DNA of 64,000 bases, from the NCBI RefSeq assembly GCF_032362555.1, contig NC_083507.1, positions 871,001 to 935,000 on the forward strand, given 5' to 3'. Position numbers and translations under genes: made by a program. A model generated the notes under the pieces. It did no database searches. It saw nothing but the letters and a program-made list of their open reading frames with translations, and was not told the origin of the DNA. Shown one piece after another: positions 16,996 through 42,587 of this stretch; positions within the stretch are counted from its first letter, which is position 1; the number at the start of each line of letters is the position of its first letter. This DNA is from Amyelois transitella (Eukaryota; Arthropoda; Insecta; Lepidoptera; Pyralidae).

Positions 16996-17115
16996 TGGAA
17001 GACGCCAGCGGCCGCTACACGTCGATGTTCTACTGGGGGAACAACTACTGGACGGGCTCCGCCGAGCTGTGCCAGATCCTGAACGAGCAGCACACGCCTT
17101 CACCACACCACAATA
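16996..17115 (+). CDS. nrf-6: Gene A exon 1 seen (start of NRF domain)
   Basis: A pyrimidine tract and CAG precede it and GTAAGT follows. It encodes EDASGRYTSMFYWGNNYW and a cysteine, and aligns with exon 2 of gene B (ADSSGRYEPG). It enters with 2 nt of a codon, so a coding exon must precede it. Confidence 0.85.
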
Positions 17116-23100: not shown

Positions 23101-26100
23101 AAAAAGGTTTCACTTATAAGATTCTAGCGACCCGCCCCGGCTACGCACGGGTGCAAAATTATAAATGTTATTATACATAAAAACCTTCCTCTTGAATCAC
23201 TCTACCTGTTACAAAAAACCGCATCAAAATCCGTTGCGTAATTTTAAAGATTTAAGCATATAGACAAACAGACTAAAATAGCGACTTTGTTTTATACTAT
23301 GTAGTGATTCACATATACATATCGGGAGACTGGTAATGGACTGGCCTAAGCTAGGCTAAAATCCTGTGTTTCAGGCCACCAGGTCTCCGCCCCCATTTAA
23401 GTTACACAAAAACACACTTAACATTAGAGATTAGGTATATAAAAAAAAGACATACATAAAATCACGCCTCTTTCCCGGAGGGGTAGGCAGAGACTACCTC
23501 TTTCCACTTGCCACGATCGCTGCATACTCCCTTCGCTTCATACACATTCATAACTCTCATGCAAGCTCGGCGGTTTGGGGTACTTTTGACCTGACCCTTT
23601 ACCAGGACGTTAATTTGGTCAATATACGTTCTAGGTCTTCCCACTCCGACCTTTCCCTCCACACTCTCCTTGTATATCTGCTTAGTCATGATGAATATGC
23701 CATCAAAAACATCCTGTAAAAACGCCAAGTCTCGCAGCTCAGTTTTTCTACCAAGTAAAAAGTTGTGAGATCCATGTGATAACAAGTCGGTTAATCTATT
23801 TATGTAGTCTCTACTTAGATGACCTTCTGACCTAAGTTATTATCATGCCAATATTAAAAATATTTTACGTGTTAAACAAATAGATCGACGATTTGATCGA
23901 AAATTCAGGTTTTTGTTTTATCCACCACGAAATTATACGGGGTCGAAAATAGCCTGAATAGTTTCGAAGGGAGGAAGCTTTTTTTTTGCTCGACTTGGCG
24001 GGGGCACTGCCGTGCCCCCAGATACAAAACCAGCTTTAGCACGCAGCTTCGCACACGTTTAGCTGAAATTTCCATTTCCGTATAATAACAACCAAAAATT
24101 TCACGCGTCCTTTTCCAATTTTTAATTCAAAATAAACGTGTAGAGTTAATCGTCAACTCGCTTGAAAGAAACTCGCTTGCGCGCGCGAGTTGGTGATTTT
24201 CAATATTACCTAGTTTTATTGTTATCAACTCGCTCGTCTATATAAAGTACAGTCTAATAAAATACAGGTTGATGAAACCAAAAACTATAAATCATTATTT
24301 AGTGACGGCGTTGGCTGATTCTATGAAGTGCTGACTTAGATTTCACACAGGTGTACAGTTTCTACTAATTTTAGCAACTTAAAAGTTACTTTTAATTACT
24401 CAATTGTGTCGTTATATAGAGTGGGTGTAACGCTATGTAGAGTGAATAATTGTATGGAATACAAGCTAAACCAACCAAAGCCAATTGATTTCGACGCTTT
24501 AAAGAGTTTGTCGTTAAATCGAATGACGTTTCATGGAATTTACACTGTATACTGATTTCAAAAACGATGTATATATTGGTTTTATTTAAAAACACCAGTC
24601 TTATATAAATTGTCTTATACATTTATACGAGTAGTAAGCAAGTACCTAAACATTAAATTTCTGTAACGTTTTTGTAGCTGACTATACTTTTAAACGTCAG
24701 ATTTCATGATCAAGCGAGTTGACGACAACAAAAATAAATAGAATTGAATATTGCCAACTCGCCGGCGCGCGCGAGTTTCTCTCACGCGAGTTGACGATTA
24801 ACTCAACGTGTAGCGTTACGTGCGCGTTTAATAAAAGGTTTTATTTACAAATCTATAAAAATTGTAGTTCGCGTAGGAAATGCGAAAGACCTGAATAGGT
24901 GGCGCTAATTCGCGCGTGTAGGTGGAGATAATTTCACGCAGGGGAAGCTAGTGCGTTGGTAAATAAGAAATGGCTTCACGTTACACCTAAATGTCACCAA
25001 AATTGGAAAATCAGTAGAATTGCTTGGCAAAATTTTGAAAATTCCCGTTAGAGCGAAAAACAGACACACCACACATCAGCTTGATCGGAGCTATGTTAAA
25101 ATAACCACATTGGCTTTCACTAAAAACCAATATTTTTATTTTATCTTTTTTTTCGTAGTAATTTACACAGTAACAAGAAATAGTACACAGTTATAAAAGT
25201 AACAAATCACTTGCAATAATACCATTTATTTTCAATTAAATTAAAGTAAATTTGAATAATTTTAAAACCTAATTGTACTCGTGTAAATGCAAATTAAAAA
25301 TTTGAAAAAAGAACACATAATTCCATTTCCCGCACAGCGCCGCACTCTCCACCTGGGCATATGCCTGCCGTCGAGCTGCGGCCGCGGCGACGTGACGTCA
25401 CTGGCGAGCGGCGTGCGCGCACCCGTCCTGCGCCACGCCGTGCTCAGCGTGCGCGCGCCGTTGCAAGGCTCCTACACCTACTTTGGAGACCCTACTTTTA
25501 GGGTGTTATTGTAAGTATACATACATTCAGTCAGAAAAGTATCGGGAATGGATTATTTATTTATGGTTCCAAATTCAAATTTTTGTTTTTTTTGTTGTTG
25601 TTAGATTGGCACAACTGTTTTCCATTTTGGCGCGGAGTTTGAGTTGCATCTGTTGTTTACATTAAATACAGTGCTATTTTTAGTTATATCATATCTAGTG
25701 TGTATTGCTAATTTCATAATGGATAAAAACATCGAACAAAGAGTTTGTCTTAAATTTTGCATTGCCAATGGAATATCGTGTTCGGAGTCACTGAAAATGT
25801 TACAGAAGGCTTACGGTGAATCGACTTTATCAAAAACTCGTGCTTATGAGTGGTACAAAGCGTTCAAAAGCGGTCGAGATGTGATGGAAGATTTGCCTCG
25901 CTCTGGTAGGCCATCAACGTCTGCAACTGAAGTTAACATCGCAAAAGTGAAGGAAATAGTGACTGAAAATCCTCATTCAACTTTGAGAGAGATAGCCACC
26001 GAACTTTCTGTATCTCACGAGTCGATCCGTACCATTTTAACTAATAATTTGGGTATGAAACATGTTGCCGCTCGGCTAGTCCCAAAAGACCTGAATTTTT

Positions 26101-29100
26101 TTCAAAAACTCAATCGCATGGGAGTCGCTGAGGACATGCTAGAACGAGTCAATTCCGACCCAACATTCATGAAACGCATTGTTACTGGTGACGAGACGTG
26201 GGTTTACGAGTTTGACATGCAAACTAGTCAACAAGCTTCGGAATGGCGCCTTCCAACTGAACCGAAACCGAAAAAACCACGCCAAAGTCGTTCAAAAGTC
26301 AAAGTCATGTTGACTGTTTTCTTTGACTATCGCGGTGTTGTGCACTCGGAATTCTTGCCGGAAGGTCAAACGGTAAATAAGGAATATTATTTGAGTGTTA
26401 TGCGGCGTTTAAGAGAGCAAATCCGACGAAAGAGGCCAGATTTGTGGAAAGAAAATTCTTGGATTTTGCACCATGATAATGCACCTTCGCACAAGGCCAT
26501 CATTGTGAACGAATTTTTAACCAAACACTCAACAAATACCATCGAGCAACCACCATATTCACCAGATATGGCTCCAGCCGACTTTTTTCTTTTTCCTAAA
26601 CTCAAATTACCACTTCGTGGCACCCGTTTTCAATCGGTAGAAGACATAAAAGAGAATTCGCGGCGAGAACTGACCTCAATTCCGGAAACAGCGTTTAAAA
26701 AATGTTTTGATGTTTGGATTATTCGTTGGCGTAAGTGTACCTATCGTTTCTAAAGGAGCATATTTTGAAGGTGATAAAATAAATTTGGATGAATAACAAA
26801 CAGTTTGTGTATTATTGATCTTTTCCTGCTACTTTCTTGACAGAGTAGTACATATAGTCACTATCTTATCTACATACATACATATAGTCTATATCCCTTA
26901 CGAGGTAGACAGAGTTAATAGTCCCGAAAAGACCGGAATGGCCACATTCAGCTGCGGACCCGACATTTAGGGTGTTATTGTAAGTATACATACATATAGT
27001 CACGTCTATATCCCTTACGGGGCGGAGCCAATAGTACAGAAAAGACCGGAATGGCCACATTCAGCTGCGGACCCGACATTTAGGGTGTTATTGTAAGTAT
27101 ACATACATATAGTCACGTCTATATCCCTTACGGGGCAGAGCCAATAGTCCCGGAAACACTGAATGGCCACGTTCAGCTGCTCGGCTTAATGATGGAATTG
27201 AGATCCAAATAGTGACAGGTTGCTAGCCCATCGCCTAAAAAAAGAAGCACAAGTATGTAAGCCTATCCCTTAGTCGCCATTTACGACATCCGTGGGAAAG
27301 AAATGGAGTGGTCCTGTTCTTTTTTGTATTGGTGCCGGGAACCACACGGCACTGTAAGTATACTCATTAAATATGTCTTTTCTGTGATGTGACTTGAGTC
27401 CCGTAAGGTCTTGAGTACGATTCTGGCAACTGGGCTTGCTTGAGATCTTTTTAGTGGTTATATATATATAAATATAAATAAATATCACTATCATCACTAT
27501 CATACGTATGATAGTGATATTGAAAGGAGAGTGAACGCGGGGAACATGGTGAATGGAGCTTTGCATGCCTTTATGAGCAGTCAGAAACTATCCAAAAAGG
27601 CTCGACTGGCTGTGCACAGGGGCGTGTTGGTCCCGACATTAATGTATGGGAGTGAAAGTTGGGTATGGCAAAAGAAGCATGAAAGCAGAATAAATGCAGT
27701 GGAAATGAGAGCGTTAAGGAGTATGATGGGTGTGAAATTGAGTGACAGGATAAGGAACAGCGTGATAAGGGAATGTTGTGATGTGAAAGAAGATGTAGTT
27801 ACAGGAATAGAAAAGGGTATGTTAAGATGGTTCGGTCATGTGGAGAGGATGAATGAAAGCAGGTTGACTAAGCAGATATACAAGGAGAGTGTGGAGGGAA
27901 AGGTCGGAGTGGGAAGACCTAGACGAACGTATCTTGATCAAATTAAGGACGTCCTGGTAAAGGGTCAGGTTAAAAGTACCCGAAACCGCCGAGCTTGTAT
28001 GAAGAGAGTTATGAATGTGGACGAAGCGAAAGAAGTATGCAGAGATCGTGGCAAGTTGAAAGAGGTAGTCTCTGCCTACCCCTCCGGGAAAGAGGCGTGA
28101 TTTTATGTATGTATGTATAAATAAATATATACAGGACAAATTACACAGATTGAGTTAGCCTCGAAGTAAGTTCGAGACTTGTGTTACGAGATACTAACTC
28201 AACGATACTTTATTTTATAATAAATACTTATATAGATAAACATCCAAGACCCAGGCCAATCAGAGAAAGTTCTTTTCTCATCATGCCCTGACCGGGATTC
28301 GAACTCGGGACCTCCGGTGACACAGACAAGCGTACTACCGCTACGCCACAGAGGCCGTCAGAATATGTATATATATATGTTTGTTGAAACCCGAAACCCT
28401 GGAAAAAAATAATATTAAATGCAATTCAATTCGGATTTTTGTTTTTTTTTTAAATTTATAAAACTACAAAAACAGAGATCTCTGCTAATAAAAAAACATA
28501 GTAATGTCTTGTTATATAGACGTGACGAAATAAAGGAATGCGGACGATGCAATTTTATGTTTGTATGTTATTGCTAGAAGCCGAAACGTCTGTCATTTGT
28601 CCTACAAATGGCGTGTGTGTAAATAGATTACATAGCTTATGTCAGCATAAGGAGTTTTGTAATGTTTTTGGGTAACTATTGTGGAACGGTCTAGCAAAAA
28701 AATATATTGTAACATAAATATATTGTACAAAAAAATATATACCTGCTATATCAAATTTGAAGCTTCATATCTACATACATTGTAGTCACGTCTATATCCC
28801 TTGCGGGGTAGACAAAGCTAACAGTCCTGAAAAGACTGAAAAGTGACGTTCACCTGTATGGCTTTACGATGGAATTGAGATTCAAATAGTGACAAATGGA
28901 TGTCATAAAAGGCGATTAAAGGATAGGCTTATAAATTTGCGATTCTTCTTTTGGGCGATGGGCTAGCAACTTGTCACATTTTGAGTCTCAGTTCTAACAT
29001 TAAGCCAAACAGCTGAACGTGGCCATTCAGTCTTTTCAAGACTGTCAGCTCTGTCTACCCCGCAAGGGATATAGACGTGACTATATGTATGTATAAGAAT

Positions 29101-32100
29101 AACAATCGTTATCAAACGATTAATTGATAATTTCAGAGGCGTGTGCATAGCCGTCGGCCTGCTGCTAATATCAGCGACTGCGTACGACATGAAGCTGGCG
29201 CGGGACGTGCGCAGGCGCAGACGGAGGGCCGCCAACATGGCCGCCGAGGGGGCCAGGAACGATCTGAAGTTGGACCTCAATGGCCTGGATGATATCACTG
29301 TGACTAATGGTAAATTGATAACATTTCGTTATGCTTTTTCCTGGAGGGGAAGATAGGGACAAAATTACGATTACGATGAAATTTGGTATGTTGGTAGCTG
29401 AAGACCCAGAATAACATATAAGTAGGCTACTTTTTATCCCGGAGTTCCCGCGGGATAGATAGGGTTTCTATGCGGACGAAGTCGCGGGCGGCCTCTAGTA
29501 TATAATATATTTTTGTCTTCAAAGTAGCTGGCTGGACTGATTATAACGGGACTTATAAACGGGACGCTATAAAACTTGAGATTAGCGCGTTAAAACAAAC
29601 AAACACTTCAGCTTTATCATATTAAAGTATAGATTTCAGTTGGCTCTGTCTACCCCGCGAGGGATATAGACGTAATCATAAGTATGTACATTGTCCACTC
29701 CAGGCAAGTCAATGTACAACGTGAACAACAACATAGCGGTCGCCAGCAACACGTCTGAAGAGCGGCTGACGGCGGAGACAGCGTCCACTGACGAGGAGAT
29801 CAAACTGAGTGAGATTATAATTGATGTATTTCATAATTCACATTCACTATATTAATTATAAAGAAAAGATTCGTAGTGCCGTGTGGTTCCCGGCACCATT
29901 ACAAAAAAGAATAGGACCACTCCATCTCTTTCCCATGGATGTCGTAAAAGGCGACTAAGGGATAGGCTAACAAACTTGGGATTCTTTTTTAGGCGATGGG
30001 TTAGCAACCTGTCACTATTTGAATCTCAATTCTATTATTAAGCCAAATAGCTGAACGTGGCCATTCAGTCTTTTCAAGACTGTTGGTTCTGTCTACCCCG
30101 CAAGGGATATAGACGTGACCATATGTATGTATTTACATATGTAGATATGTAAAAGATTTGTATATTTGTATGTTTGTATTAAACTCAAAAACTATATATT
30201 GCTATTAAAAACTACTTGATTTTAAAAATTCCTACATACATATGTACATATAGTCACGTCTATATCCCTTACGGGGTAGACAGAGCCAACAGTCCTGAAA
30301 AGGCTGAATGGCCACGTTCACCAACTCGGCTTAATGATGGAATTGAGATTCAAATAGTGACAGGTTGCTAGCCCGACGCCTGCAAGATGAAACCGAAGTT
30401 TTAAAGCCTATCCCTTAGTCGCCTTTTTACGTAAAGGACGTACGGAATCGCATCGTTAGTAACATTTGCATTCATGAATGTTATAATTGATTGCCGTGTG
30501 GTTCTCGGCACTTATAAAATAATAATAGGACCACTCTATTAATAAATGGGAAAATCCATTTATGTCGTAAATGTGATTAAGTTTAAAGCTTATAAACTTG
30601 GAATCCTTCTTTTAGACGATGGGCAAGCAACTTGTCACTATTTGAATCTCAATTCTATCATTAAGCCAAATAGCTGAACGTGGCCTTAATAGTATCCTAT
30701 AATAATGAATAAAAAATTTTGAATTTTGAATTTGAATCGCGTCTCTCAAACGGATCTTACATAATTAAGTATTGTGTGTGACCCATCAAATTTAACCTCA
30801 TAAACTCTCATAATTGCAGGCATCTGGTCGGAGCTGCTCCTATCTTTCTCCATGAAAGCGAACATTCTCCAGATCTTCGACCAGACAGTTGGCTCCGACA
30901 CCGTTCCCGTGGTTCATGGTCTGCGTACTCTGTCCATGGTGTGGGTAATTTTTGGACACACTTGCATCGTTGTCTTCAAGGTATGCAATAGAATAATATA
31001 TTTATTATCTTTTTCTTGACATATTTGACATTATTTTACCATATATATGATTGATTGCTTACGCGTATTATTACGTACATACATATGGTCACGTCTATAT
31101 CCCATGCGGGGTAGACAGAGCCAATAGTCTTGAAAAGACTGAATGGCCACGTTCAGCTGTTTGGCTTAATGATAGAATTGAGATTCAAATGGTGACAGGT
31201 TGCTAGACCATCACCCTTAAAAAGAATCCCAAGTTTGTAAGCCTCCTTTTACGATATCCATGGGAAAGAGATGGAGTGGTCCTATTCTTTTTTGTATTGG
31301 TGCCGGGTACCACACGGCACATAATATTTTTCTTGACATATTTGACATTATTTTACCATATATGATTGCTTACGCGTATTGTCACGTCTATATCCCCCAC
31401 GGGGTTGACAGAGCCAACAACCATTAACAGACTGAAAGGCGACGCTATGTCGTTCGGCTTTATGATGACAGGTTGCTAGCCCATCGCCCAAAGAGGAATC
31501 TCAAGTATATATAAGCTTTTCCCTTAGTCGACTTTTACGACATCCATGGGAAAGAGATGGAGTGGTCCTATTCTTTTTTCTATTGGTGCAGTCTCTGGGT
31601 GAACTTTTATACACATTTATCGCTTATAGTGATATGGTTGCCAAGTATTTTAGTCACTACTACGCTGGTCGCCTTTTGATGCTATGTTTTTAATACACAA
31701 TTGTGAATTTGCTGTAATTTATTTTGGTGCAATAAAGAGTTATTACATTGCGTTGCTTTACGTTGCGTTGCGTTGCGTTGCGTTGCATTGCGTTGCATTG
31801 CAATGTATTGTATTGTATTGTGTGTTGTTACAGTACGCAGACAACACCGCGCTGCGAGCTGTGCTGGAGAAGAGTTTCCTGTTTCAGCTGATCCTGAGCG
31901 CGGTCTACAGCGTCGACACGTTCTTCTGTCTCGGGTAATTCACTTACCTATAACATAATGTTAGAAAGAAAGAAAGAAAGAAAAATCGTTAATTTGGTAC
32001 ATTAACAAAATATAAATTGAAATCAGTGTATTTTAAATTATATACATACATACAAATAATCACGTCTATATCCCTTGCGGGGTAGACAGAGCCAACAGTC

Positions 32101-35100
32101 TAGCAAAGACTGATAGGCCACGTTCAGCTATTTGGCTTTAAGATAAAATTGAGATTCAAATAGTGACAGGTTGCTAGCACATGGCCTAAAAAAGGATCCC
32201 AAGTTTGTAAGCCTATCCCTTAGTCGCCTTTTACGACATCCATGGGAAAGAGATGGAGTGGTCCCATCCTTTCCTGTATTGGTGCCGGGAACCACACGGC
32301 ACTTTAAATTACATGCATGCACCAAAAATGGCCCTCGCTCAGCATGTGTCATGGCAGAGTCATGACGCTGGTTTTCTGCGAGTACCATACTAAATAAAAC
32401 TAAACATTAAAACTTACATATATATAAGTAAGAGTTACACTAAATTATATCATTAACAAAAAAAAATGGTGTGTGGTGCCGTGTGGTTCCCGGCACCAAT
32501 ACAAAAAAGAATAGGACCACTCCATCTCTTTCCCATGGATGTCGTAAAAGGCGACTAAGGGATAGGCTTACAAACTTGAGATTCTTTTATAGGCGATGGG
32601 CTAGCAACCTGTCACTATTTTAATTCTCAATTCTATCATTAAGCCAAATAGCTGAACGTGGCCATTCAGTCTTTTCAAGACTGGTGGCTCTGTCTACCCC
32701 GCAAGGGATATAGACGTGACCATATGTATGTAAGTACAAAAAAAAATATACAGAACATTTTTCATTATAATCATAAAATAAAATACGAGTAGCATTATAA
32801 TACAAATTGCTGCAAAATTACAATAATTGTGTACTTAGTCTACTAACTATGTTAGTCATTCAAATTAAGTGCCTTCACAATATATTTTTAATCTATACTA
32901 ATATTATAAAGCTGAAGAGTTTCTTTCTTTGTTTGTTTGAACGCGCTAATCTCAGGAAGTACAGGCTTGAGTTAAAAAAAAATTGTTTTGAATAGACCAT
33001 TTATCGATATAACATCACGCTGCAACTATAAGGAGCAAAGAAATAATGGAAAATGTGCAAAAAACGGGGAATATTATTCATTCTTGAGGGCTTCAATGAT
33101 GCCCTAAATAACTATTCCACGCGGACGAAGTCGCGGGCACAGCTAGTATATTATATTATAAACTAGCTGATATTATAAAGCCTAAAGACTTCCTCGATAA
33201 ATGGTCTATTCAACGCAAAAATATTTTTTCAATTCGCACCAGTAGTTCCTGAGATTAGCGCGTTCAAACAAACAAACTCTTCAGCTTTATAATATTAGTA
33301 TAGATTTATTGATAGCCCAAACAATGTGATACAATATTAAGATATTGTATCACAATGTTATCACGTGATAGATTTATTATCTTTATTGCATAGAAATATT
33401 CTTATGCATTGTAAGCAATTCAGTACACCCTGTACATAAATCTTTTTAAAATTGGCAATCCATAAAATATACATATATATATATATATATTTCTTTTTTC
33501 AATATTAAATCTCATAAATATATAAAATTAAACAATGTATTCTCTCGTCCACATTCTATTCTAAGTATAATTTAATATTGTGAAGGTGACGTTGTTGAAG
33601 AAAATGCTGCAGTGCAATTTGTTACCGCTTCTTCTGCACTGACGCCTTGGAAGCGGCAGTAAACTTAGTTTTTAAGTAATTTATTTGACGTGTAACCAAT
33701 GTTGTTAAACCATACGACAATTATTAAGCGATATATAGTATCCTATAATAATGAATAAAAATTTTGAATTTTGAATTTTGATCTACTTCAGTGGCATGTT
33801 GGTGACGTTCCTGTATTTCCGGACGAACGCGAAGGGGAAGCTGGACCTCATCACGAAGGGCAGGAGGAAGCTCACCGCCGGAGTACTACAGTTCATGGGA
33901 CTCATCGCTTACAGATTCGCCAGGTTTGTTAGTTTGTTTGTTTGTATTATCTTTATTGCATAGAAATATACACAGTAACAAGAAAATAATAAGGACATAG
34001 TTATAAAAAGTGCCGTGTGGTTCCCGGCACCAATACAAAAAAGAATAGGAGCAGTCCATCTCTTTCACATGGATGTCGTAAAAGGCGACTAAAAGATAGG
34101 TTTACAAACTTGAGATTCTTCTTTTACGCGATGGGCTTGATGGCTTTTTTTTTGTATTATCTTCACATACATACATATATACATTGGTCACGTCTATATC
34201 CCTTGCAGGATAGACAGAGCTAGACAGTCTTGAAAAGACTGAATGGCCACGTTCAGCTATTAGACTTAGGTAATGATAGAATTGAGATTCAAAATGTGAC
34301 AGGTTGCTAGCCAATCGCCTTAAAAAAATCCCAAGTTTGTAAGCCTATCCCTTAGTCGCTTTTTACGACTTCCACGGGAAAGGGACGGAGTGGTCCCATT
34401 CTTTTTTGTATTCGTGCCTTGAACCACAACGGCATCGGCACGTATCTAAAATGATGTTATCCATGAACAATAAATGCGAGTGATTCTATTCCACTTTCCC
34501 GATTTAACCGTACGATCTAAAATACATACATACATACATATGGTCACGTCTATATCCCTTGCGGGGTAGACAGAGCTAGACAGTCTTGAAAAGACTGAAT
34601 GGCCACGTTCAGCTATTTGGCTTTATGATAGAATTGAGATTCAAATAGTGACAGGTTGCTAACCCATCGCCTAAAAAAAGAGTCCCTAGTATTATCTTTA
34701 TTTCATAGAAATTTACACAGTAACATGAAAATAGTAAGTACCTACCTACATAGTTATTAAAAGAAACAAATCATTTGCAACGGCGGACTTATCCCATGAA
34801 GGGATCAAAAATGATGATAGACAAAAAAAAAAATTGAACTTCTCTTCAGACTGACAGCGCCGTACCTGTTCATGTACTTATTATAACAAAAAAAAAATGA
34901 ACTCTTCAGACTGACAGCGCCGTACCTGTTCATGTACTTATTATAACAAAAAAAAATGAACTCTTCAGACTGACAGCGCCGTACCTGTTCATGTACTTAT
35001 TATAACAAAAAAAAAATGAACTCTTCAGACTGACAGCGCCGTACCTGTTCATGTACTTATTATAACAAAAAAAAAAATGAACTCTTCAGACTGACAGCGC

Positions 35101-38100
35101 CGTACCTGTTCATGTACTTATTATAACAAAAAAAAAATGAACTCTTCAGACTGACAGCGCCGTACCTGTTCATGTACTTATTATAACAAAAAAAAAATGA
35201 ACTCTTCAGACTGACAGCGCCGTACCTGTTCATGTACTTATTATAACAAAAAAACGAACTTCTCTTCAGACTGACAGCGCCGTACCTGTTCATGTACTTA
35301 TTATAACAAAAAAAAAAATGAACTCTTCAGACTGACAGCGCCGTACCTGTTCATGTAGGTACTTATTATAACAAAAAAATGAACTCTTCAGACTGACAGC
35401 GCCGTACCTGTTCATGTACTTATTATAACAAAAAAAAAATGAACTCTTCAGACTGACAGCGCCGTACCTGTTCATGTACTTATTATAACAAAAAAATGAA
35501 CTCTTCAGACTGACAGCGCCGTACCTGTTCATGTACTTATTATAACAAAAAAAAAATGAACTCTTCAGACTGACAGCGCCGTACCTGTTCATGTACTTAT
35601 TATAACAAAAAAACGAACTTCTCTTCAGACTGACAGCGCCGTACCTGTTCATGCTGGGCGTGGTGGAGGTGACGATGAAGTGGTTCGACCAGAACGCGGT
35701 GTTCGAGCCCCCGGCCGCGGACCACGAGACCTGCCCCAAGTACTGGTGGAGGAATCTGCTGTACATCAACACGTTGTTTCCTGTCGATCAGATGGTAATG
35801 ATATACTACTCTGTCAAGAAAGTAGCAGGAAAAGATCCATAATACACAAACTGTTTGTTATTCATCCAAATTTATTTTATCACCTTCAAAATATGCTCCT
35901 TTAGAAACGATACACTTACGCCAACGAATAATCCAATCATCAAAACATTTTTTAAACGCTGTTTCCGGAATTGAGGTCAGTTCTCGCCGCGAATTCTCTT
36001 TTATGTCTTCTACCGATTGAAAACGGGTGCCACGAAGTGGTAATTTGAGTTTAGGAAAAAGAAAAAAGTCGGCTGGAGCCATATCTGGTGAATATGGTGG
36101 TTGCTCGATGGTATTTGTTGAGTGTTTGGTTAAAAATTCGTTCACAATGATGGCCTTGTGCGAAGGTGCATTATCATGGTGCAAAATCCAAGAATTTTCT
36201 TTCCACAAATCTGGCCTTTTTCGTCGGATTTGCTCTCTTAAACGCCGCATAACACTCAAATAATATTCCTTATTTACCGTTTGACCTTCCGGCAAGAATT
36301 CCGAGTGCACAACACCGCGATAGTCAAAGAAAACAGTCAACATGACTTTGACTTTTGAACGACTTTGGCGTGGTTTTTTCGGTTTCGGTTCAGTTGGAAG
36401 GCGCCACTCCGAAGCTTGTTGACTAGTTTGCATGTCAAACTCGTAAACCCACGTCTCGTCACCAGTAACAATGCGTTTCATGAATGTTGGGTCGGAATTG
36501 ACTCGTTCTAGCATGTCCTCAGCGACTCTCATGCGATTGAGTTTTTGAAAAAAATTCAGGTCTTTTGGGACTAGCCGAGCGGCAACATGTTTCATACCCA
36601 AATTATTAGTTAAAATGGTACGGATCGACTCGTGAGATACAGAAAGTTCGGTGGCTATCTCTCTCAAAGTTGAATGAGGATTTTCAGTCACTATTTCCTT
36701 CACTTTTGCGATGTTAACTTCAGTTGCAGACGTTGATGGCCTACCAGAGCGAGGCAAATCTTCCATCACATCTCGACCGCTTTTGAACGCTTTGTACCAC
36801 TCATAAGCACGAGTTTTTGATAAAGTCGATTCACCGTAAGCCTTCTGTAACATTTTCAGTGACTCCGAACACGATATTCCATTGGCAATGCAAACTTTAA
36901 GACAAACTCTTTGTTCGATGTTTTTATCCATTATGAAATTAGCAATACACACTAGATATGATATAACTAAAAATAGCACTGTATTTAATGTAAACAACAG
37001 ATGCAACTCAAACTCCGCGCCAAAATGGAAAACAGTTGTGCCAATCTAACAACAACAAAAAAAAACAAAAATTTGAATTTTAACCATAAATAAATAATCC
37101 ATTCCCGATACTTTTCTGACTGAATGTATTATAATACAAATTTAATTTATTGCCCACAAAAAAAAATACATAATATGTAGAAGAAACATACATCTATACT
37201 AATATCATAAAGTTGAAGAGTTTGTTCGTTTGTTTGAATGCGCAAATCTCAGGAACTACTGGTTTGAATTGAAAATCTTTTTTGCGTTGAATAGACCATT
37301 TATCGAGGAAGGCTTTCGACTATTTATCAAAAAGTACCACTCTAAATTTTTCTGTTTTTATTTCATGATTAATAACTCTTGAAGGTCTATTTGTACATAC
37401 ATACATACATAAAATCACGCCTCTTTTCCGGAGGGGTAGGCAGAGACTACCTCTTTCCACTTGCCACGATCTCTGCATACTTCCTTCGCTTCATCCTCAT
37501 TCATTCTATTTGTTAAATGTGTTTTAACTGGATCAAGTCATATATTTGTATTAAGCATTTAAGCAATGATTGTAGTGACATTATTATATTTATAACGATC
37601 TTGTTCTACTTACAGTGCATGTTGTGGAGTTGGTACCTGTCAGACGACACACAGTTCTACGCCGTCAGTGCTATACTACTCATTTTAGCAACAAGGTAAT
37701 TGGTTTCAATAATTATATATACCAGAACGTTTTGTAAAGCCATTTTTGAAATGATTTAAAGCCAAACAGTAAACTTTAAATTTAAGTCCGCTAAAGTCAG
37801 CTTAGTGCGAACTTAAAATAATTCTTCTAAACTCAAATCCGCTAAATTCAGCTTAGTGTAAACTTAAAATAAGTCTTCTAAATTCAAATCCGCTAAAGTC
37901 AGTTTTGTGTGAACTTAAAATTAGTCTTCTAAACTCAAATCCGCTAAAGTCAGCTTTGTGTTGTAGGAAGTATAGTTATAAAAGTTATTTAATTCCTACA
38001 GAAGAAAGAAGGAGAAAAGAGGAGAAAATATTCAGTTTAAAATAATTATATTATGAACATAAAAATTAAGAAGCTTTTACAATAAAAATTATTTTTGACA

Positions 38101-41100
38101 TCAATCAGTAACAAAACCAAACGGTTGCCATCCGTTGCTATGGGCGTCTAGCAAGAAGGTTGCCTACAGTGTGAACTTAAAATAATTCTTATACACTTAA
38201 ATCCGCTAAAGTCAGCTTCGTGTGAACTTAAAATAATTCTTCTAAACCCAAATCCGCTAAAGTCAGCTTCGTGTGAACTTAAAATAATTCTTCTAAACTC
38301 AAATCCGCTAAAGTCAGCTGTATGAACTTAAAATAATTCTTCTACACTTAAATCCGCTAAAGTCAGCTTCGTGTGAACTTAATATAATTCTTTTCTAAAC
38401 TCAAATCCGCTAAAGTCAGCTTAGTGCCAACTTAAAATAATTCTTCTAAACTTAAATCCGCTAAAGTCAGCTTCGTGTGTTAAAATAATTCTTCTAAAGT
38501 CAAATCCGCTAAAGTCAGCTTAGTGCCAACTTAAAATAATGCTTCTAAACTCAAATCCGCTAAAGTCAGCTTAGTGCCAACTTAAAATAATTCTTTTAAA
38601 CTCAAATCCGCTAAAAACAATTTTGTGTGAACTGAAAACAAATCTCATAAATTAAATTAATGTGAGACAGCAATTAAAGCCTGTTCAAACGTTTCGGACA
38701 TCGGATTTAACACCTCCTCCTCCATTGTTTTCCAGCCATTTCAAACTGTCAGTATCACTAACCGGCGTATTCTTCGTGTCGTCATTATTCACAACGGGCT
38801 ACGTGTCATGGAGTAACGAACACATTCCAAACAGCGAAGACCCATTCACTCAGTTCGACAAGATTTACGACAAACCCTGGACGAGATTAGGGCCTTATTT
38901 GATAGGCATGGCCACTGGATGGATATTGTTCAAGACTAATTTGAAAATCAGGATGAAGAAGGTATGTTTATTAATTTTTATTATTATATCTTATATATAA
39001 AATTCTCGTGTCACAATGTTTGTCTCCGTTCTCCTCTGAAACGGCTTTACCGATTTTAACCAAATTTTGCATGTATATTCAGTAGGTCTGAGAATCGGCT
39101 AACATCTATTTTTCATACCCCTAAGTGTTATTTTTTTTAACTAGGTTTACTTTATATGGCAAAACAACGTTTGCCGGGGCAGCTAGTAGTTATATAATAT
39201 TTAAGATACTTTCTTCATCGGCAATATGTTTGGTTGGATTTAAATCATGATCAATTGAAACATCAGCATGGCTGGGTTCATCTGCGTTTTTTTTCTGTTT
39301 CCTAATTATTTTACATACATACATATGGTCACGTCTTTATCCCTTGCGGGGTAGACAGAGCCAACAGTCTTGAAAAGACTGATTAGCCACGATCAGCTAA
39401 GTATTTGGCTTAATGATAGAATTGAGATTCAAATAGTGACAGGTTGCTGACCCATCGCCTAAAAAAGAATCCCAAGTTTGTAAGCCTATCCCTTAGTCGC
39501 CTTTTACTATATCCATGGGAAAGAGATGGAGCGGTCCAATTCTTTTTTGTATTGGTGCCGGGAAAACCACACGACACGAGTTTAGTATTTTTCATTATTA
39601 TTTAGCTACATAATATTTAACATACTTTCTTTACTGTAACATTATATGAGAGTTTTAAGTAATTTATTTGACGTCGACAACCAATGTTGTTAAACCATAC
39701 GTTTTGACAATTATTAAGCGATACGAAGTATCCTGATATAATAATGAATAAAAATTGAGAATTTTGAATTTTTTTTTAAACATCTACTACATTTAGTCAC
39801 ATAATATTTAATATACTTTCTTTACCGTAACATATATGATATATATCTCTTATATAACTCTATAAACTATTAGGAGCGAAGAAATAATTGAGAATGTAAA
39901 AAAAACGGGGAAAATTATTCATCCTTTCATCCATCAATGATGCCCAAAATTCCACGCAGACGAAGTCACGGGCACAGCTAGTATAACTCTATAACAACTC
40001 TATATCTTCTATAACAACTCTATATCTTCTATAACAACTCTATATCTTCTATAACAACTCTATATCTAATCGTCTACAACAAATATCTCCCACAGGTATG
40101 GGCATGGGTGGGGTGGACAGTGTGCACAGCAACGCTGCTGTTCCTCATATTCGGATTGTACCAAACTCAGTTAGGAGTGGCGGCGGCCGCCGTGTACAGC
40201 GCGCTGTCGCACTCGCTGTGGTCCGCCTGCGTCGGCTGGATCATCATCGCCTGCTCCACCGGTTACGGAGGTCTGTACATACATACATACATAAAATCAC
40301 GCCTCTTTCCCGGAGGCAGAGACTACCTCTTTCCACTTGCCACGATCTCTGCATATTTCCTTCGCCTCATCCACATTCATAACTCTCTTCATGCAAGCTC
40401 GGCGGTTTCGGGTACTTTTGACCTGACCCTTTGCCAGGACGTCCTTAATTTGATCAAGATACGTTCGTCTAGGTCTTCCCACTCCGACCTTTCCTGGTCT
40501 GTTCGTCTTTACTGATATTATAATAAGGCTGAAGAGTTTGTTTGTTTGTTTGTTTGAGCACGCTAATCTCAGGTACTACTGGTATTCTTTTTGCGTTGAA
40601 CAGACCAGTTGTCGAGGAAGACTTTAGGCTCTAATATTATAAAGCTAAAGAGTTTGTTTGTTTGTTTGGCTCCACCGGCTACGGAGGTCTGTCTGTCTAT
40701 ATATAATACTAGCTGTGCCCGCGACTTCGTCTGCGTAGAATAGTTGTTTAAGGCATCATTGAAGTCCTCGAGGCGCGCTGTCGCACTCGCTGTGGTCCGC
40801 CTGCGTCGGCTGGTTACGGAGGTCTGTTCGTCTATACTGATATTATAAGGCTGAAGAGTTTGTATGTTTGTTTGAACGCGCTAATCTCAGGTACTAGTGG
40901 TTCGAATTGAAAAAATCTTTTTGCGTTGAATATACCAATTGTCGAGGATAACAATACGCTGTAAGGAGCGAAGAAATAATGGAAAATGTGAAAAAAAAAC
41001 GGGGAAATTTTTTTAACCTTGAGGGCTTCAATGATGCCCAAAATAACTTTCCACTTTTTTCAAGACTTAAAACTGAACACAGTTTAGATTGTGAATGTTA

Positions 41101-41686
41101 ATTTATAATATTTCCTAGGTCTTTAATATGTATGTTTATATACAAGTCTCGTTTTCAATTTTAATGCCCTGGGTTCACAAAAAAACTATATTTTCAAACG
41201 ATACTAGGTATTTTAAGTATCACCTATGTATATCATCACTCTCCTAACTTTCATTAAACATAGTCACTTTAGTATTTTATTTTTTATTAATTGCTATTTT
41301 ACTAATAAGAAAATATGTTTCCACAGGTTGGGTCCGGCCTCTGTTATCGGCTCCAATCTTATACCCGTTCTCAAGAGTTACCTACTGCGCATATCTAGTA
41401 CATCCGGTGGTGCTACGATACGTCGCTATGCACCTAACACATCCCATACATTTGGGGGAACTTTTAGTGGTAAGTTTGTCGCCAAGAAAAGGTTTTTTTT
41501 TTCAAAATAACAATTTCTATAAAGCATTTGACTAAATTTAAGCTATTTTGTTTACAGTTTGTATTATTCCTGGGGCTGACTGTCATATCCTACGTGCTTG
41601 CTTTCATCATATCCGTGGCTTTTGAAGCGCCGATGGTAACGATGCTGAAGATAATAGCGCCTCAGAGGAAACCACACAGAGTCTGA
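16996..41686 (+). CDS. nrf-6: Gene A: NRF-6-like acyltransferase-3 family membrane protein, 14 exons, 5' end not found
   Basis: Exons joined by GT/AG and phase: 16996-17115, 22915-23048, 25338-25510, 29137-29309, 29704-29808, 30820-30980, 31834-31934, 33792-33923, 35629-35794, 37616-37695, 38736-38961, 40096-40270, 41327-41469, 41558-41686. The 2018 nt are open throughout and end in TGA. The N-terminal part is the extracellular NRF domain (ASGRY, later GICLPSSC with its paired cysteines). From exon 6 on it is an acyltransferase-3 domain with many membrane helices (GLRTLSMVWVIFGH with the family histidine; YWWRNLLYINTLFP; FSRVTYCAYLVHP). In C. elegans NRF-6 family members are linked to lipid and drug transport; the substrate here is unknown. 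Exon 1 begins in mid codon (phase 1), exactly like exon 2 of paralog B, so one signal-peptide exon is missing. It may lie left of the window or be hidden in repeats. Tail-to-tail with gene B. Confidence 0.9.
17140..17260 (-). mobile_element. Helitron-like 3' end fragment
   Basis: ACTAGCTGACGCCCGCGACT immediately after exon 1 of gene A; the rest is diverged. Confidence 0.5.
17261..18210. other. Gene A intron, AT-rich, nothing recognised
   Basis: No repeat family or exon could be supported here. Confidence 0.5.
18212..18569 (+). mobile_element. Helitron-like pieces: H2 5' fragment and H1 copy
   Basis: H2 start at 18212-18300, then H1 from about 18354 (AATATTATAAAGCTGAAGAG) to GGGCACAGCTAGT at 18569. 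Confidence 0.72.
18967..19176 (+). mobile_element. TATG-tailed SINE with internal deletion
   Basis: Head GTGCCGTGTGG, missing the CTCCATCTC segment, tail GATTATATGTATG. Confidence 0.8.
19200..19252 (+). mobile_element. tRNA-derived SINE T1 3' fragment
   Basis: Diverged GTCTCAAAC...GACTAACTCAAT and GTAATTTGTCCCGT. Confidence 0.65.
19703..19945 (-). mobile_element. tRNA-derived SINE T1, full length
   Basis: Complement of the GGCCTCTGTGGCGCAGCGG head at the right, ACGGGACAAATTACACAGAT end at the left. Confidence 0.88.
19985..20128 (+). mobile_element. TATG-tailed SINE middle part
   Basis: GACTAAGGGATAGGC through GACTGTTGGCTCTCTG. Confidence 0.75.
20157..20545 (-). mobile_element. Jockey-like LINE 3' UTR, rearranged
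   Basis: Blocks at 20157-20235 (CAGTGCAGAAGAAGCGG) and 20470-20545 (tail side), with unrelated sequence between. Confidence 0.6.
20664..20916 (-). mobile_element. TATG-tailed SINE, full length
   Basis: All landmarks present, including TTTACGACATC and the head hairpin. Confidence 0.88.
20917..21295. other. Gene A intron, nothing recognised
   Basis: AT-rich with no supported feature. Confidence 0.4.
21296..21703 (+). mobile_element. TATG-tailed SINE followed by a helitron-like 3' part
   Basis: SINE at 21296-21551. Then 21562-21703 ends GGAACAAAGCCCCGCGCAAT and AGCTAGT, another CTAG-ending family. Confidence 0.75.
22071..22294 (-). mobile_element. TATG-tailed SINE, diverged
   Basis: The head is mutated (TTCCGGAAACCATACGG). 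Confidence 0.75.
22303..22680. mobile_element. RTE-like LINE fragments of two families
   Basis: 22303-22360 is the inverted 3' end of family 2 (TTTCCCATTGGGGTAGGCAG). 22384-22675 (+) is family 1 and encodes WFGHVERMNESRLTKQ, KVGVGRPRRTFLDQTKDVLA and NRRACMKRVMNV, broken by a frameshift near the end. Confidence 0.8.
22682..22872. mobile_element. SINE remnants in both orientations
   Basis: A minus tail fragment (22682-22745) next to a + head fragment (22776-22872), 40 bp before exon 2. Confidence 0.65.
22915..23048 (+). CDS. nrf-6: Gene A exon 2 (NRF domain)
   Basis: The acceptor is TTCCAG and the donor GTAATG. It encodes the segment FATAFYTVRLSVQTDVKEIV, matching gene B exon 4 (KFPLAYSVAKIYMTVI). 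GC-rich against AT-rich repeat introns. Confidence 0.85.
23131..23312 (-). mobile_element. Helitron-like element, family H4
   Basis: CTAGCGACCCGCCCCGGCTA at the left, TTTGTTTTATACTATGTAGT at the right; a body common in Lepidoptera (inference from memory of the family). Confidence 0.65.
23449..23785 (-). mobile_element. RTE-like LINE C-terminal fragment
   Basis: Minus strand encodes YKESVEGKVGVGRPRTYI, VKGQVKSTPNRRACM and WKEVVSAYPSGKEA stop, then a TATG tail. 5' truncated at about 23690; the sequence beyond is unrelated. Confidence 0.85.
24143..24804. mobile_element. 662-bp foldback DNA transposon with long TIRs and 8-bp target duplication
   Basis: Both ends read GAGTTAATCGTCAACTCGC inwards. 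The imperfect inverted repeats extend about 100 bp and contain several AACTCGC/GCGAGTT motifs with a GC-rich core (GCGCGCGCGAG). Flanked by perfect 8-bp duplications AACGTGTA at 24135-24142 and 24805-24812, pointing to the hAT, P or related superfamilies. No transposase inside. Confidence 0.8.
25338..25510 (+). CDS. nrf-6: Gene A exon 3 (NRF cysteine motif)
   Basis: It opens with RRTLHLGICLPSSCGRGDV, the conserved C-x-P-x-x-C signature of NRF domains. The donor GTAAGT is followed 13 nt later by a mariner element. Degenerate copies of the exon end plus donor occur at about 26953 and 27066. Confidence 0.9.
25524..26848 (+). mobile_element. mariner transposon, copy 1 (1325 bp)
   Basis: Bounded by TA duplications (25522-25523, 26849-26850). 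Imperfect TIRs of about 30 bp (CATTCAGTCAGAAAAGTATC and the complement of CTACTCTGTCAAGAAAGTAG). Starts 13 nt after the exon 3 donor of gene A. Near-identical to the inverted copy at 35806-37126. Confidence 0.93.
25719..26753 (+). pseudogene. mariner transposase copy 1, frameshifted at C-terminus
   Basis: Same protein as the copy at 35858-36931. A 4-bp insertion at about 26740 shifts the frame, so the last residues become KCTYRF instead of the normal end. Substitutions include F for V near residue 12 and V for D in KCFDVW. The D,D34D catalytic residues (VTGDETWVYEF, HHDNAPSHKA, YSPDMAPADFF) are still present. Start chosen at MDKNIEQRV as in the family; an upstream in-frame ATG adds 25 residues that are not mariner-like. 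Confidence 0.9.
26873..27352 (-). mobile_element. Three SINE pieces interleaved with copies of exon 3 end
   Basis: Tail fragments at 26873-26955 and 27000-27065, then a longer copy at 27110-27352. The two junctions carry GACATTTAGGGTGTTATTG then TAAGTATAC, the exon 3 end plus donor of gene A. Confidence 0.8.
26953..27109 (+). repeat. Two degenerate copies of exon 3 end plus donor site
   Basis: TTTAGGGTGTTATT followed by GTAAGTATACATACAT occurs at the real exon 3 end (donor 25511) and again with donors at 26980 and 27093, 113 bp apart. The repeat unit includes a SINE tail piece. Confidence 0.82.
27515..28118 (+). mobile_element. RTE-like LINE C-terminus (longest copy, about 188 codons)
   Basis: Open to the natural stop. 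Encodes GVLVPTLMYGSESWVWQKKH, AVEMRALRSMMGVKLSDRIR, MLRWFGHVERMNESRLTKQI, KVGVGRPRRTYLDQIKDV and SAYPSGKEA, the C-terminal region after the RT domain of RTE-like elements. 5' truncated at a short palindrome (ATATCACTATCAT...). Ends GGCGTGATTTTATGTATG. Confidence 0.88.
28125..28360 (-). mobile_element. tRNA-derived SINE T1, full length
   Basis: Inserted in the TATG tail region of the preceding LINE; the GCCACAGAGGCCGTC head (complement) is intact. Confidence 0.87.
28771..29093. mobile_element. Two SINE halves facing each other
   Basis: Minus 3' half (28771-28895) joined to a + part (28896-29093), a natural inverted repeat 40 bp before exon 4. Confidence 0.8.
29137..29309 (+). CDS. nrf-6: Gene A exon 4 (first membrane helix, Arg-rich loop)
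   Basis: It encodes GVCIAVGLLLISATAY, a membrane helix, followed by an Arg-rich cytosolic stretch (ARDVRRRRRR). This is the usual link between the NRF domain and the acyltransferase domain. Confidence 0.88.
29366..29690. mobile_element. Helitron-like fragments and SINE tail
   Basis: H2 3' part at 29366-29501 ending GCGGGCGGCCTCTAGT, inverted H1 head at about 29575-29634, SINE tail at 29636-29690 ending 13 bp before exon 5. Confidence 0.75.
29704..29808 (+). CDS. nrf-6: Gene A exon 5 (hydrophilic linker)
   Basis: An acidic, Ser/Thr-rich linker (TAETASTDEEIKL) between clear AG and GTGAGA sites. In phase on both sides. Poorly conserved in sequence, as is usual for this loop. Confidence 0.8.
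29876..30133 (+). mobile_element. TATG-tailed SINE, full length (near consensus)
   Basis: GTGCCGTGTGGTTCCCGGCA through TATAGACGTGACCATATGTA; one of the least diverged copies. Confidence 0.9.
30233..30740. mobile_element. SINE (-), SINE (+) and LINE tail
   Basis: Minus SINE 30233-30432. + SINE 30492-30685, which breaks into a Jockey-like LINE 3' tail (AATAGTATCCTATAATAATG) at 30685-30740. Confidence 0.78.
30820..30980 (+). CDS. nrf-6: Gene A exon 6 (start of acyltransferase-3 domain)
   Basis: It encodes WSELLLSFSMKANILQIF and then HGLRTLSMVWVIFGHTC. The last block is the acyltransferase-3 signature with Arg and the membrane-facing His. Confidence 0.92.
31076..31595 (-). mobile_element. Two SINE copies in tandem
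   Basis: 31076-31320 full and 31379-31595 lacking its head. The flank TATTTTTCTTGACATATTTG around 31005 and 31325 is duplicated, so the first copy sits in a local duplication. Confidence 0.82.
31741..31830 (+). repeat. Pentamer microsatellite (GTTGC/ATTGT)n
   Basis: GTTGC repeats grade into ATTGT repeats and end next to the exon 7 acceptor. Confidence 0.9.
31834..31934 (+). CDS. nrf-6: Gene A exon 7 (membrane helix)
   Basis: It encodes FLFQLILSAVYSVDTFFCLG, including the family motif VDTFF. The acceptor lies just after a pentamer microsatellite. Confidence 0.9.
32042..32302 (-). mobile_element. TATG-tailed SINE, full length
   Basis: Complete from CATACATACA tail to head. Confidence 0.9.
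32476..32735 (+). mobile_element. TATG-tailed SINE, full length
   Basis: Complete; in inverted orientation to the copy 175 bp upstream. Confidence 0.9.
32891..33306. mobile_element. Helitron-like H1 copy followed by an inverted partial copy
   Basis: Complete H1 (+) from CTATACTAATATTATAAAGC to GGGCACAGCTAGT at 33149, then minus 5' half from 33164 to 33306. Confidence 0.82.
33411..33780 (+). mobile_element. Jockey-like LINE, 5'-truncated, abutting exon 8
   Basis: Same 3' UTR as the LINE at 119-514, including the TA microsatellite and the ending TTTTGAATTTTGAATTTTG. Its end is 11 nt from the exon 8 start. Confidence 0.88.
33792..33923 (+). CDS. nrf-6: Gene A exon 8
   Basis: It encodes GMLVTFLYFR and LQFMGLIAYRFAR. 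The intron side of its acceptor is only about 11 nt long before a LINE 3' tail. Confidence 0.88.
34010..34440. mobile_element. SINE (+) head half and SINE (-) full copy
   Basis: + part 34010-34145 (GTGCCGTGTGGTTCCCGGCA) and minus copy 34167-34436. Confidence 0.82.
34531..34688 (-). mobile_element. TATG-tailed SINE 3' part
   Basis: Tail through the CCATCGCCTAAAAAAAG region, then stops. Confidence 0.8.
34840..35640 (+). repeat. Minisatellite of 13 units carrying the exon 9 acceptor and first coding bases
   Basis: Units of 57-61 bp. Each holds ACTCTTCAG then ACTGACAGCGCCGTACCTGT, TCATG, then TACTTATTATAAC and a poly-A run. CTGACAGCG starts at 34851, 34911, 34970, 35030, 35091, 35151, 35211, 35271, 35332, 35393, 35453, 35510 and 35570; the real exon is the next, at 35630. 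The unit diverges from the exon after FM (then Y L L stop). Variant units with AACTTCTCTTCAG at 34851, 35271 and the true exon suggest a block duplication. Confidence 0.96.
35629..35794 (+). CDS. nrf-6: Gene A exon 9
   Basis: It encodes LTAPYLFMLGVVEVTMKW and CPKYWWRNLLYINTLFP, a strongly conserved family block. It has the same length (166 nt) as exon 9 of gene B. Its acceptor and first 24 coding bases are repeated 13 times immediately upstream, and a mariner starts 11 nt after it. Confidence 0.93.
35806..37126 (-). mobile_element. mariner transposon, copy 2 (1321 bp), intact
   Basis: TA duplications at 35804-35805 and 37127-37128; TIRs as in copy 1. Begins 11 nt after exon 9 of gene A, in the opposite orientation to copy 1. 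Confidence 0.94.
35858..36931 (-). CDS. mariner transposase, intact (357 aa)
   Basis: Cut-and-paste DNA transposase acting on its own TIRs. N-terminal helix-turn-helix region (MDKNIEQRVCLKVCIANG, then SKTRAYEWYKAFKSGR and LPRSGRPSTS). The catalytic core is D,D34D: VTGDETWVYEF, HHDNAPSHKA, YSPDMAPADFFLFP, with 34 residues between the second and third Asp. Ends SKGAYFEGDKINLDE. Length is normal for mariner (about 340-360). An upstream in-frame ATG would give 382 aa, but MDKN fits the family start. Possibly still active. Confidence 0.93.
   Translation of the reverse strand: MDKNIEQRVCLKVCIANGISCSESLKMLQKAYGESTLSKTRAYEWYKAFKSGRDVMEDLPRSGRPSTSATEVNIAKVKEIVTENPHSTLREIATELSVSHESIRTILTNNLGMKHVAARLVPKDLNFFQKLNRMRVAEDMLERVNSDPTFMKRIVTGDETWVYEFDMQTSQQASEWRLPTEPKPKKPRQSRSKVKVMLTVFFDYRGVVHSEFLPEGQTVNKEYYLSVMRRLREQIRRKRPDLWKENSWILHHDNAPSHKAIIVNEFLTKHSTNTIEQPPYSPDMAPADFFLFPKLKLPLRGTRFQSVEDIKENSRRELTSIPETAFKKCFDDWIIRWRKCIVSKGAYFEGDKINLDE
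37194..37320 (+). mobile_element. Helitron-like H1 5' half
   Basis: CTATACTAATATCATAAAGT to AGGAAGGCTTTCGAC, then truncated. Confidence 0.75.
37396..37505 (-). mobile_element. RTE-like LINE 3' fragment
   Basis: (CATA)n tail, CACGCCTCTTTTCCGGAGGG, then the C-terminal codons in complement. Confidence 0.82.
37616..37695 (+). CDS. nrf-6: Gene A exon 10
   Basis: It encodes CMLWSWYLSDDTQFYAVSAI, the family motif following the YINTLFP block. In gene B this exon is fused to the start of the next one. Confidence 0.9.
37786..38640 (+). repeat. About 51-bp minisatellite, 13 units in two blocks
   Basis: The unit core is AAATCCGCTAAAGTCAGCTT followed by GTGTGAACTTAAAATAATTC. Four units at about 37786-37965, about 200 bp of other sequence, then nine at about 38167-38640. 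It fills the intron up to about 95 bp before exon 11. Confidence 0.93.
38736..38961 (+). CDS. nrf-6: Gene A exon 11
   Basis: Helix SVSLTGVFFVSSLFTTGYVS, then DKIYDKPWTRLGPYLIGMAT and GWILFK: the conserved P-W-x-R-x-x-P-Y-x-x-G signature of the family. Confidence 0.93.
38983..39190 (+). mobile_element. Helitron-like element, family H3
   Basis: CTTATATATAAAATTCTCGT start and TTTGCCGGGGCAGCTAGTA end; a second copy at 48248. Confidence 0.78.
39314..39579 (-). mobile_element. TATG-tailed SINE, full length
   Basis: All landmarks, small insertions. Confidence 0.88.
39652..39983 (+). mobile_element. Jockey-like LINE 3' tail and helitron H1 3' half
   Basis: LINE 39652-39772 (TTTAAGTAATTTATTTGACG...), H1 end 39880-39983 (CACGGGCACAGCTAGT). 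Confidence 0.75.
39984..40075 (+). repeat. 20-bp tandem repeat next to exon 12
   Basis: CTATAACAACTCTATATCTT repeated about four times, ending 20 bp before the exon 12 acceptor. Confidence 0.9.
40096..40270 (+). CDS. nrf-6: Gene A exon 12
   Basis: Two membrane helices (WTVCTATLLFLIFGLY and VGWIIIACSTGYGG). The donor GTCTGT is followed at once by an RTE LINE fragment whose target duplication includes the donor itself. Fragments of this exon recur at 40673 and 40773. Confidence 0.9.
40277..40495 (-). mobile_element. RTE-like LINE fragment inserted at the exon 12 donor
   Basis: Left: GGTCTGT (40270-40276) overlaps the donor G|GTCTGT. Right: GGTCTGT again at 40496-40502. A 7-bp target duplication around a 5'-truncated LINE copy encoding (complement) GRPRRTYLDQIKDVLAKGQV. 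Confidence 0.88.
40510..41052. mobile_element. Rearranged helitron-like H1 pieces with exon 12 fragments
   Basis: H1 5' parts at 40510-40640 and 40832 to 41052, inverted 3' part at 40717-40771. Between them are exon 12 end copies at 40668-40695 and 40773-40830, each with the GGAG|GTCTGT donor. Confidence 0.8.
40773..40830 (+). pseudogene. Fragment of gene A exon 12 with donor
   Basis: GCGCGCTGTCGCACTCGCTG through GTCGGCTGG equals exon 12, then 23-26 nt are deleted before TTACGGAG|GTCTGT. A shorter piece (CTCCACCGGCTACGGAG|GT) lies at 40669-40688. Confidence 0.85.
41327..41469 (+). CDS. nrf-6: Gene A exon 13
   Basis: It encodes PLLSAPILYPFSRVTYCAYL and VHPVV, the conserved penultimate helix. 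143 nt, the same length and phases as gene B exon 13. Confidence 0.92.
41558..41686 (+). CDS. nrf-6: Gene A last exon
   Basis: Final helix LFLGLTVISYVLAFIISV followed by FEAPMVTMLKII and a basic tail, ending in TGA. The FE-x-P motif is typical of the family C-terminus. Confidence 0.92.
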   Translation, partial: FVLFLGLTVISYVLAFIISVAFEAPMVTMLKIIAPQRKPHRV

Positions 41687-42587
41687 ACGCGGTGTGCCGC
41701 AGGGCAGCGAACTTGGACCAACGTACAAAGATTTTTTATAAGAAGTTGGCACTGCCGACGTTTATAAGTATAAATATAATGTGGATAAATGAAAATGGTA
41801 AATGGAAGCTTTCCATGTAAATATTTTTTGATATGACATAAAAAAAGATGCGTTTATTACATTGTTAACTTGTTATTTAACAAAGAACAAACTATTTTTT
41901 ATTTCAATATATTTGAGTGAATAGTTATAATAATGGACGTTTCCATTTACCTACGTTTAAGACAACCACATTGACTTTAAACTCACGGATTACCTAACAA
42001 GCCAAAGGATCTCGAGTGAAAATGAGGCTAAGTTTAAATCACAGTTGGGATGATTGAAATAGCTTTTACTGTAACTCTATGATTATGGACTTGTATATCA
42101 TAATGACTTCGATTAGTTTAATGATTTACTTCTTAGACATAACCAACATGGCCGATATTAAAGTCATTGAATAGAATAAAGAAAAACATGATCCACTGGA
42201 TTTTTTACGGTAGAAATCAGCTTCTGTAGAATAATATCGTTTCATAGATCATGCCTTAGGTACATTTCTTTAGTAATGTCATCCATAAGCTGCTCATTCA
42301 AAGACATCACGTCTTCTAACTGGTAGTCTTCTATCTAAACTGGTAGTGTCATGGGTCATGGCGGTCCACACGAATCTGATCTATAAAGCTTAAGCGTATT
42401 AAGAAATAAATTTAATTAAAATTTAATCTTTATTTATATAAAATTAAAGACTACAAAGGTCAATAAGGACTTAGAAGGAAAGTATTTTTAAAATAATTAT
42501 AGTTTTATCACTGATTATCAAAAGAATATTTGGCATTTTAATGAATCACAAATTCATGATGATTCCTGAAATGTATTATTCTAGTAG
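41687..42587 (+). other. Gene A 3' UTR and convergent intergenic sequence
   Basis: Unique AT-rich sequence free of the common repeats. An AATAAA at 42175-42180 could serve as polyadenylation signal. Confidence 0.5.

Follow-up and report, generated by a model that had tools for sequence, protein, structure and literature searches.

Minisatellites that run across an intron–exon boundary, often with the splice signals included, have been described in amphioxus under the name 'mirages'; they are reported for Adh3, BflGb6, BflGb9, TnC, and PGBD5, and the units of the Adh3 mirage are put at 10–72 bp (PMC3087553, PMC3902484). In BflGb6, the mirage lies on the acceptor side and comprises 150–160-bp units that are 81%–100% alike, with six units in one haplotype and three in another (PMC3087553). 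According to the same authors, regular splicing of the globin and Adh3 genes is undisturbed, and the signals within the repeats could act as cryptic sites (PMC3087553). Undisturbed splicing is also proposed for lancelet PGBD5, which has imperfect repeats at its splice sites, and that report cites the Adh and TnC mirages as being without aberrant mRNAs (PMC3902484). Duplication across a boundary is likewise known from potato, in which an RdRp gene is reported to have gained an intron by tandem duplication crossing an intron end and the adjoining exon start (PMC4974935). In Drosophila, it is argued that nonsense-mediated decay hides weakly spliced new introns from selection (PMC2809761). Such an array in Lepidoptera is not among the matches listed by our own search, which used narrow terms in the open-access literature and had subscription papers outside its scope.

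An array of the same structure, in which an intron end, the adjoining exon, and the splice signal are repeated in tandem in 14 copies, lies within a 64,000-nucleotide stretch of DNA from the moth Amyelois transitella (the window, to which coordinates refer), and by the structural definition it is a moth example of the mirage kind already described. Its host, gene A (16996..41687, plus strand), has 14 coding exons in the window, which were placed by their splice signals and encode 671 residues. These are contained letter for letter in P0001, an 'O-acyltransferase like protein' of A. transitella that is the best of 412 homologues found and is taken here as a predicted protein. Residues 1–217 of P0001 match at 100% starting 14.8 kb to the left of the window, where one further coding exon lies; gene A has 15 coding exons in all, and the array precedes the tenth. 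A sequence-only reading of this DNA had called the exon concerned exon 9, which is correct as a count of coding exons within the window but not for the whole gene. Its assignment of the gene to a membrane-protein family is supported: the protein is nrf-6/O-acyltransferase-like, and the 549-residue first model scores 75.7 bits against Acyl_transf_3 (PF01757) in Pfam, for which the gathering score is 31. Another nrf-6-like gene, 41%–44% identical to P0001, is found at G000:C3:5025464-5030894.

Tandem Repeats Finder places the array at 34825..35653 on the plus strand (period 60, 13.8 copies, 94% matches, score 1450), and the intron that contains it is 1705 nt long (33924..35628, plus strand). Each unit of this 60-bp minisatellite joins the 3′ end of the intron to the exon's first 25 nt. 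Exact search finds the exon-start core, ACTGACAGCGCCGTACCTGTTCATG, in 14 exact copies spaced 57–61 bp apart, starting at 34850, 34910, 34969, 35029, 35090, 35150, 35210, 35270, 35331, 35392, 35452, 35509, 35569, and 35629; every copy lies directly 3′ of an acceptor ending in CTCTTCAG. The first 13 cores are decoys, and core 14 (35629) is the real exon start, which continues into the exon body CTGGGCGTGG... A decoy array made from the exon's own boundary, as the sequence-only reading had it, is therefore borne out; the acceptor AG is present in each unit, but the exonic share is 25 nt and not the 24 nt originally given.

The 25-nt core is invariant in all 14 units, and the units differ between their cores in A-run length, at one C/T position, by a 3-nt gap that distinguishes CTTCTCTTCAG from CTCTTCAG, and by a single 4-nt insertion. 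Behind the core, 12 of the 13 decoys continue with TACTTATTATAAC and the A-run, and decoy 9 does the same behind the 4-nt insertion. Unit 1 has a unique left flank without the TACTTATTATAAC stretch. Zero variation events in the exonic part versus about three in the linker (A-run length aside) are too few to claim constraint on the exonic sequence. The tract preceding the acceptor is long in units 1, 8, and 14 (CGAACTTCTCTTCAG or TTGAACTTCTCTTCAG) and short in the remaining 11 (TGAACTCTTCAG). By exact search and acceptor scoring, the decoys, all on the plus strand, comprise decoy 1, a core with a long-tract acceptor (34850..34874); decoys 2–7, with short-tract acceptors (34910..35234); decoy 8, which is identical to the last unit at 65 of 65 bases around the acceptor (35270..35294); and decoys 9–13, again with short-tract acceptors and with the 4-nt insertion behind core 9 (35331..35593). 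The stretch preceding the acceptor in the 11 short-tract decoys is A-rich and only weakly pyrimidine, which qualifies the polypyrimidine acceptor once ascribed to every unit.

A pattern for the 22-nt linker occurs 12 times in the 327-Mb assembly, always inside the array, and a 256-bp array query matches at its own locus only, in a search that skips very common words and whose counts are lower bounds. A dispersed element was rejected, since both linker pattern and query are found at the array only; chance is ruled out by the 14 exact 25-nt copies. Phage records gave no match to the sequence. Misassembly or sequencing slippage could have inflated the number of units, and homogeneous units with A-runs are indeed difficult for some read types. 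The assembly, however, is contiguous, with 33 contigs for 327 Mb, the array at 829 bp is well inside the length of one long read, and the unit variants follow each other in a non-periodic order, all of which makes an artefact very improbable.

The preceding exon (33792..33923, plus strand; GMLVTFLYF...YRFA) ends at the donor CAG|GTTTGT, and the real exon (35629..35794, plus strand; 166 nt; RLTAPYLFMLGVVEV...DQM; donor ATG|GTAATG) lies inside the exact match to P0001. The gene model thus uses 35629, in agreement with the original claim, and the P0001 sequence needs this last acceptor. Read through the P0001 record, splicing to the last acceptor would be what yields the protein. Among the 120 homologues listed (of 412), 118 have a junction in which YRF.RL[TS].PY runs straight into the [LIV]G of the next exon; in P0040 and P0042, LTAPYLF is instead preceded by a different sequence, and both look like models with missing exons. 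P0001 falls in a cluster with one member and its name has no 'isoform' tag, which we take, from RefSeq naming habit, to indicate one protein isoform.

Translation from the preceding exon shows what use of a decoy would entail. Twelve of the 13 decoys read ...RLTAPYLFMYLL-stop (LTAPYLFM-YLL-stop), and decoy 9, with its 4-nt insertion, reads ...RLTAPYLFM-stop; for all 13, the predicted entry in frame followed by an early stop is upheld, the stop falling within four codons past LTAPYLF. These stops lie 813–1532 nt upstream of the last exon junction, and a stop this far before the last junction is the setting for nonsense-mediated decay. Occasional decoy use would give early-stop transcripts that are presumably cleared in this way.

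A decoy acceptor might instead be paired with the GT after nucleotide 24 of the core (CAT|GTACTT), so that a 24-nt in-frame exon would add the eight residues RLTAPYLFILTAPYLFML and a microexon or intron would be gained. The frame of such a microexon is open, and the potato gene offers a precedent in that its intron gain through a boundary-crossing duplication is described as taking the donor from a formerly exonic piece (PMC4974935). The core donor scores 0.64, however, which is under 12 of the 13 real gene A donors (leave-one-out), and the two donors close to core 9 reach 2.39 and 2.86. Successive splicing would also have to remove spacers of about 36 nt, for which they are too short, being below the intron length limit for consecutive splicing. 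At the protein level, P0001 contains a single LTAPYLF and no eight-residue insertion, and so shows no new intron in use of the type gained by tandem duplication. We consider this outcome extremely improbable.

Acceptor strength was assessed with a matrix built from the 13 other gene A acceptors in the window, a small set that gives rank only. At 6.95, the real site is matched by decoy 8 and surpassed by decoy 1 (7.39), and the scores of the 11 remaining decoys lie at 2.77–2.86; the earlier description of near-perfect decoys is hence apt for decoys 1 and 8 but, on this small matrix, not for the 11 others. Leave-one-out scores of the 13 other acceptors extend from −0.17 to 8.30, and the 11 weak decoys fall inside this range. 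Scoring of the intron from 33950 onward covered 83 AGs, of which two, both decoys, reach or exceed the real site; a score of 5.69 is reached in the 11 short-tract decoys by an AG lying 8 nt within the core. Given the scores of decoys 1 and 8 and of this internal AG, it is possible that decoys compete with the real acceptor. The branch-point-like TACTTATTATAAC precedes units 2–14 equally, with no AG before the acceptor in the last unit, the one examined; being common to these units, it makes each usable and cannot single out the last. The distance from acceptor to 5′ splice site, which sets exon length, is 166 nt for the real site and 226–945 nt for the decoys. Tract strength and this distance both differ between sites, and the exonic sequence downstream of FM is therefore not the sole discriminator that it had been taken for.

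The locus is very probably a boundary-spanning mirage minisatellite that is tolerated since the last acceptor is mostly chosen. The intron end, together with 25 nt of exon start, would have been duplicated in tandem and expanded by unequal exchange or slippage, and ordinary tandem-repeat expansion is the most likely origin of the 13 extra copies. The first copy would have remained joined to the original intron and the last to the exon body; with the last copy so attached, the gene works if the last acceptor is taken. Under exon definition, with a 166-nt exon and a 1.7-kb intron, the last acceptor would mostly win because it is the closest to the exon's 5′ splice site. The shortened tract of the 11 decoys may aid it further, and for decoys 1 and 8 distance alone would have to account for their losing.

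Three further boundaries in the window have copies, two in gene A and one in gene B. Exon 25338-25510 has its 3′ end, donor included (ATT|GTAAGT), repeated in two copies (26957-27002 and 27070-27115, each 42 of 46 bases alike) in a 113-bp array (26957..27115, plus strand), and a mariner copy separates these from the real exon. For exon 40096-40270, the terminal part recurs in two broken copies at 40669..40830 (plus strand), one with the donor (40669-40692) and one with a rejoined donor near 40815 (40773-40813). Gene B, a paralogue of gene A, is a second nrf-6-like gene with weak matches to P0001, situated on the minus strand (46399-52813) and facing gene A. Its presumed real acceptor and the start of exon CMQVSWYLS... 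(47302..47435, minus strand) have a decoy copy, 127 of 134 bases identical, at 47767..47900 (minus strand).

Local duplicates in direct orientation (no more than 3 kb apart, at least 30 bp, at least 80%) cover 16.2% of the 264 kb scanned, neighbouring dispersed-repeat copies included besides tandem ones, and 14.7% of positions are inside a local duplicate with 8 bases to spare on each side. Enrichment of boundary duplicates is not seen in this one gene and one region: 2 of 27 gene A window boundaries are spanned where about four are expected, in a test in which the donor of exon 40096-40270 falls below the 30-bp cut and which covers neither gene B nor the first exon's donor, left of the window. 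Arrays with a period of at least 25 cover 5.6% of the 264 kb and hold one of these 27 boundaries, that of the present array. For this gene and region, the boundary copies do not exceed what local duplication without exon preference would give, and being at or below the repeat-density expectation they carry no sign of selection.

Other repeats were observed in the same region. Two mariner-family transposase frames, nearly identical by eye, occupy 25605-26753 (plus strand) and 35858-37045 (minus strand), in the introns that follow exon 25338-25510 and exon 35629-35794, respectively; their common element sequence starts near both donors, and the second frame, the one scanned, contains Transposase_1 and HTH_48. 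A 51-bp minisatellite forms two blocks, 37787-37961 (3.4 copies) and 38169-38645 (9.4 copies), both within the intron that separates exon 37616-37695 from exon 38736-38961. The frame 56766-57722 has HTH_psq and DDE_1 matches and is perhaps a transposase, which we take to be possibly pogo-like. To the right of the window lies a 3.5-kb array of 127-bp units (L033:975-4522; 27.9 copies, 99% alike).

The array might have a regulatory role if decoys were used to a meaningful extent, the early-stop transcripts degraded, and protein level tuned by unit number. An early stop in 13 of 13 decoys, far upstream of the last junction, is consistent with this, as is an acceptor score that is equalled by decoy 8 and exceeded by decoy 1. 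Such a role is nevertheless very unlikely: 11 of the 13 decoys are weaker than the real site, P0001 has no isoform tag (in a search that covered proteins of about 300 residues or more), and boundary copies do not surpass what repeat density predicts. It is likewise very unlikely that a variable-number array of decoys sets the amount of functional acyltransferase-like protein through its unit count, with occasional in-frame 24-nt microexons and the boundary duplication en route to a new intron, in an insect that has several copies of this type within one gene.

The locus provides a natural experiment on splice-site selection, in that a single intron presents the spliceosome with 14 nearly identical acceptors. 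Models that weigh site strength, proximity to the 5′ splice site, or transcript order predict different outcomes, and RNA-seq data for the array could discriminate between them; this test of acceptor choice is the strongest part of the finding.

Like the intronic minisatellites of the same region, the array sits among many others, but unlike them it covers a gene A boundary. With the potato RdRp gene, it has a boundary-crossing duplicate in common; that case, however, comprises one duplication with a new intron in use, whereas P0001 of the moth shows no gained intron. The amphioxus mirages are the same in having tandem boundary copies beside a real exon, BflGb6 also on the acceptor side. The moth array differs from these in its 13 extra copies, its 57–61-bp units, and an exonic part that is identical throughout (whereas BflGb6 units are 81%–100% alike). 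Should mirages prove common in moths, which the three further boundaries in the window hint at, the phenomenon would widen beyond the amphioxus reports.
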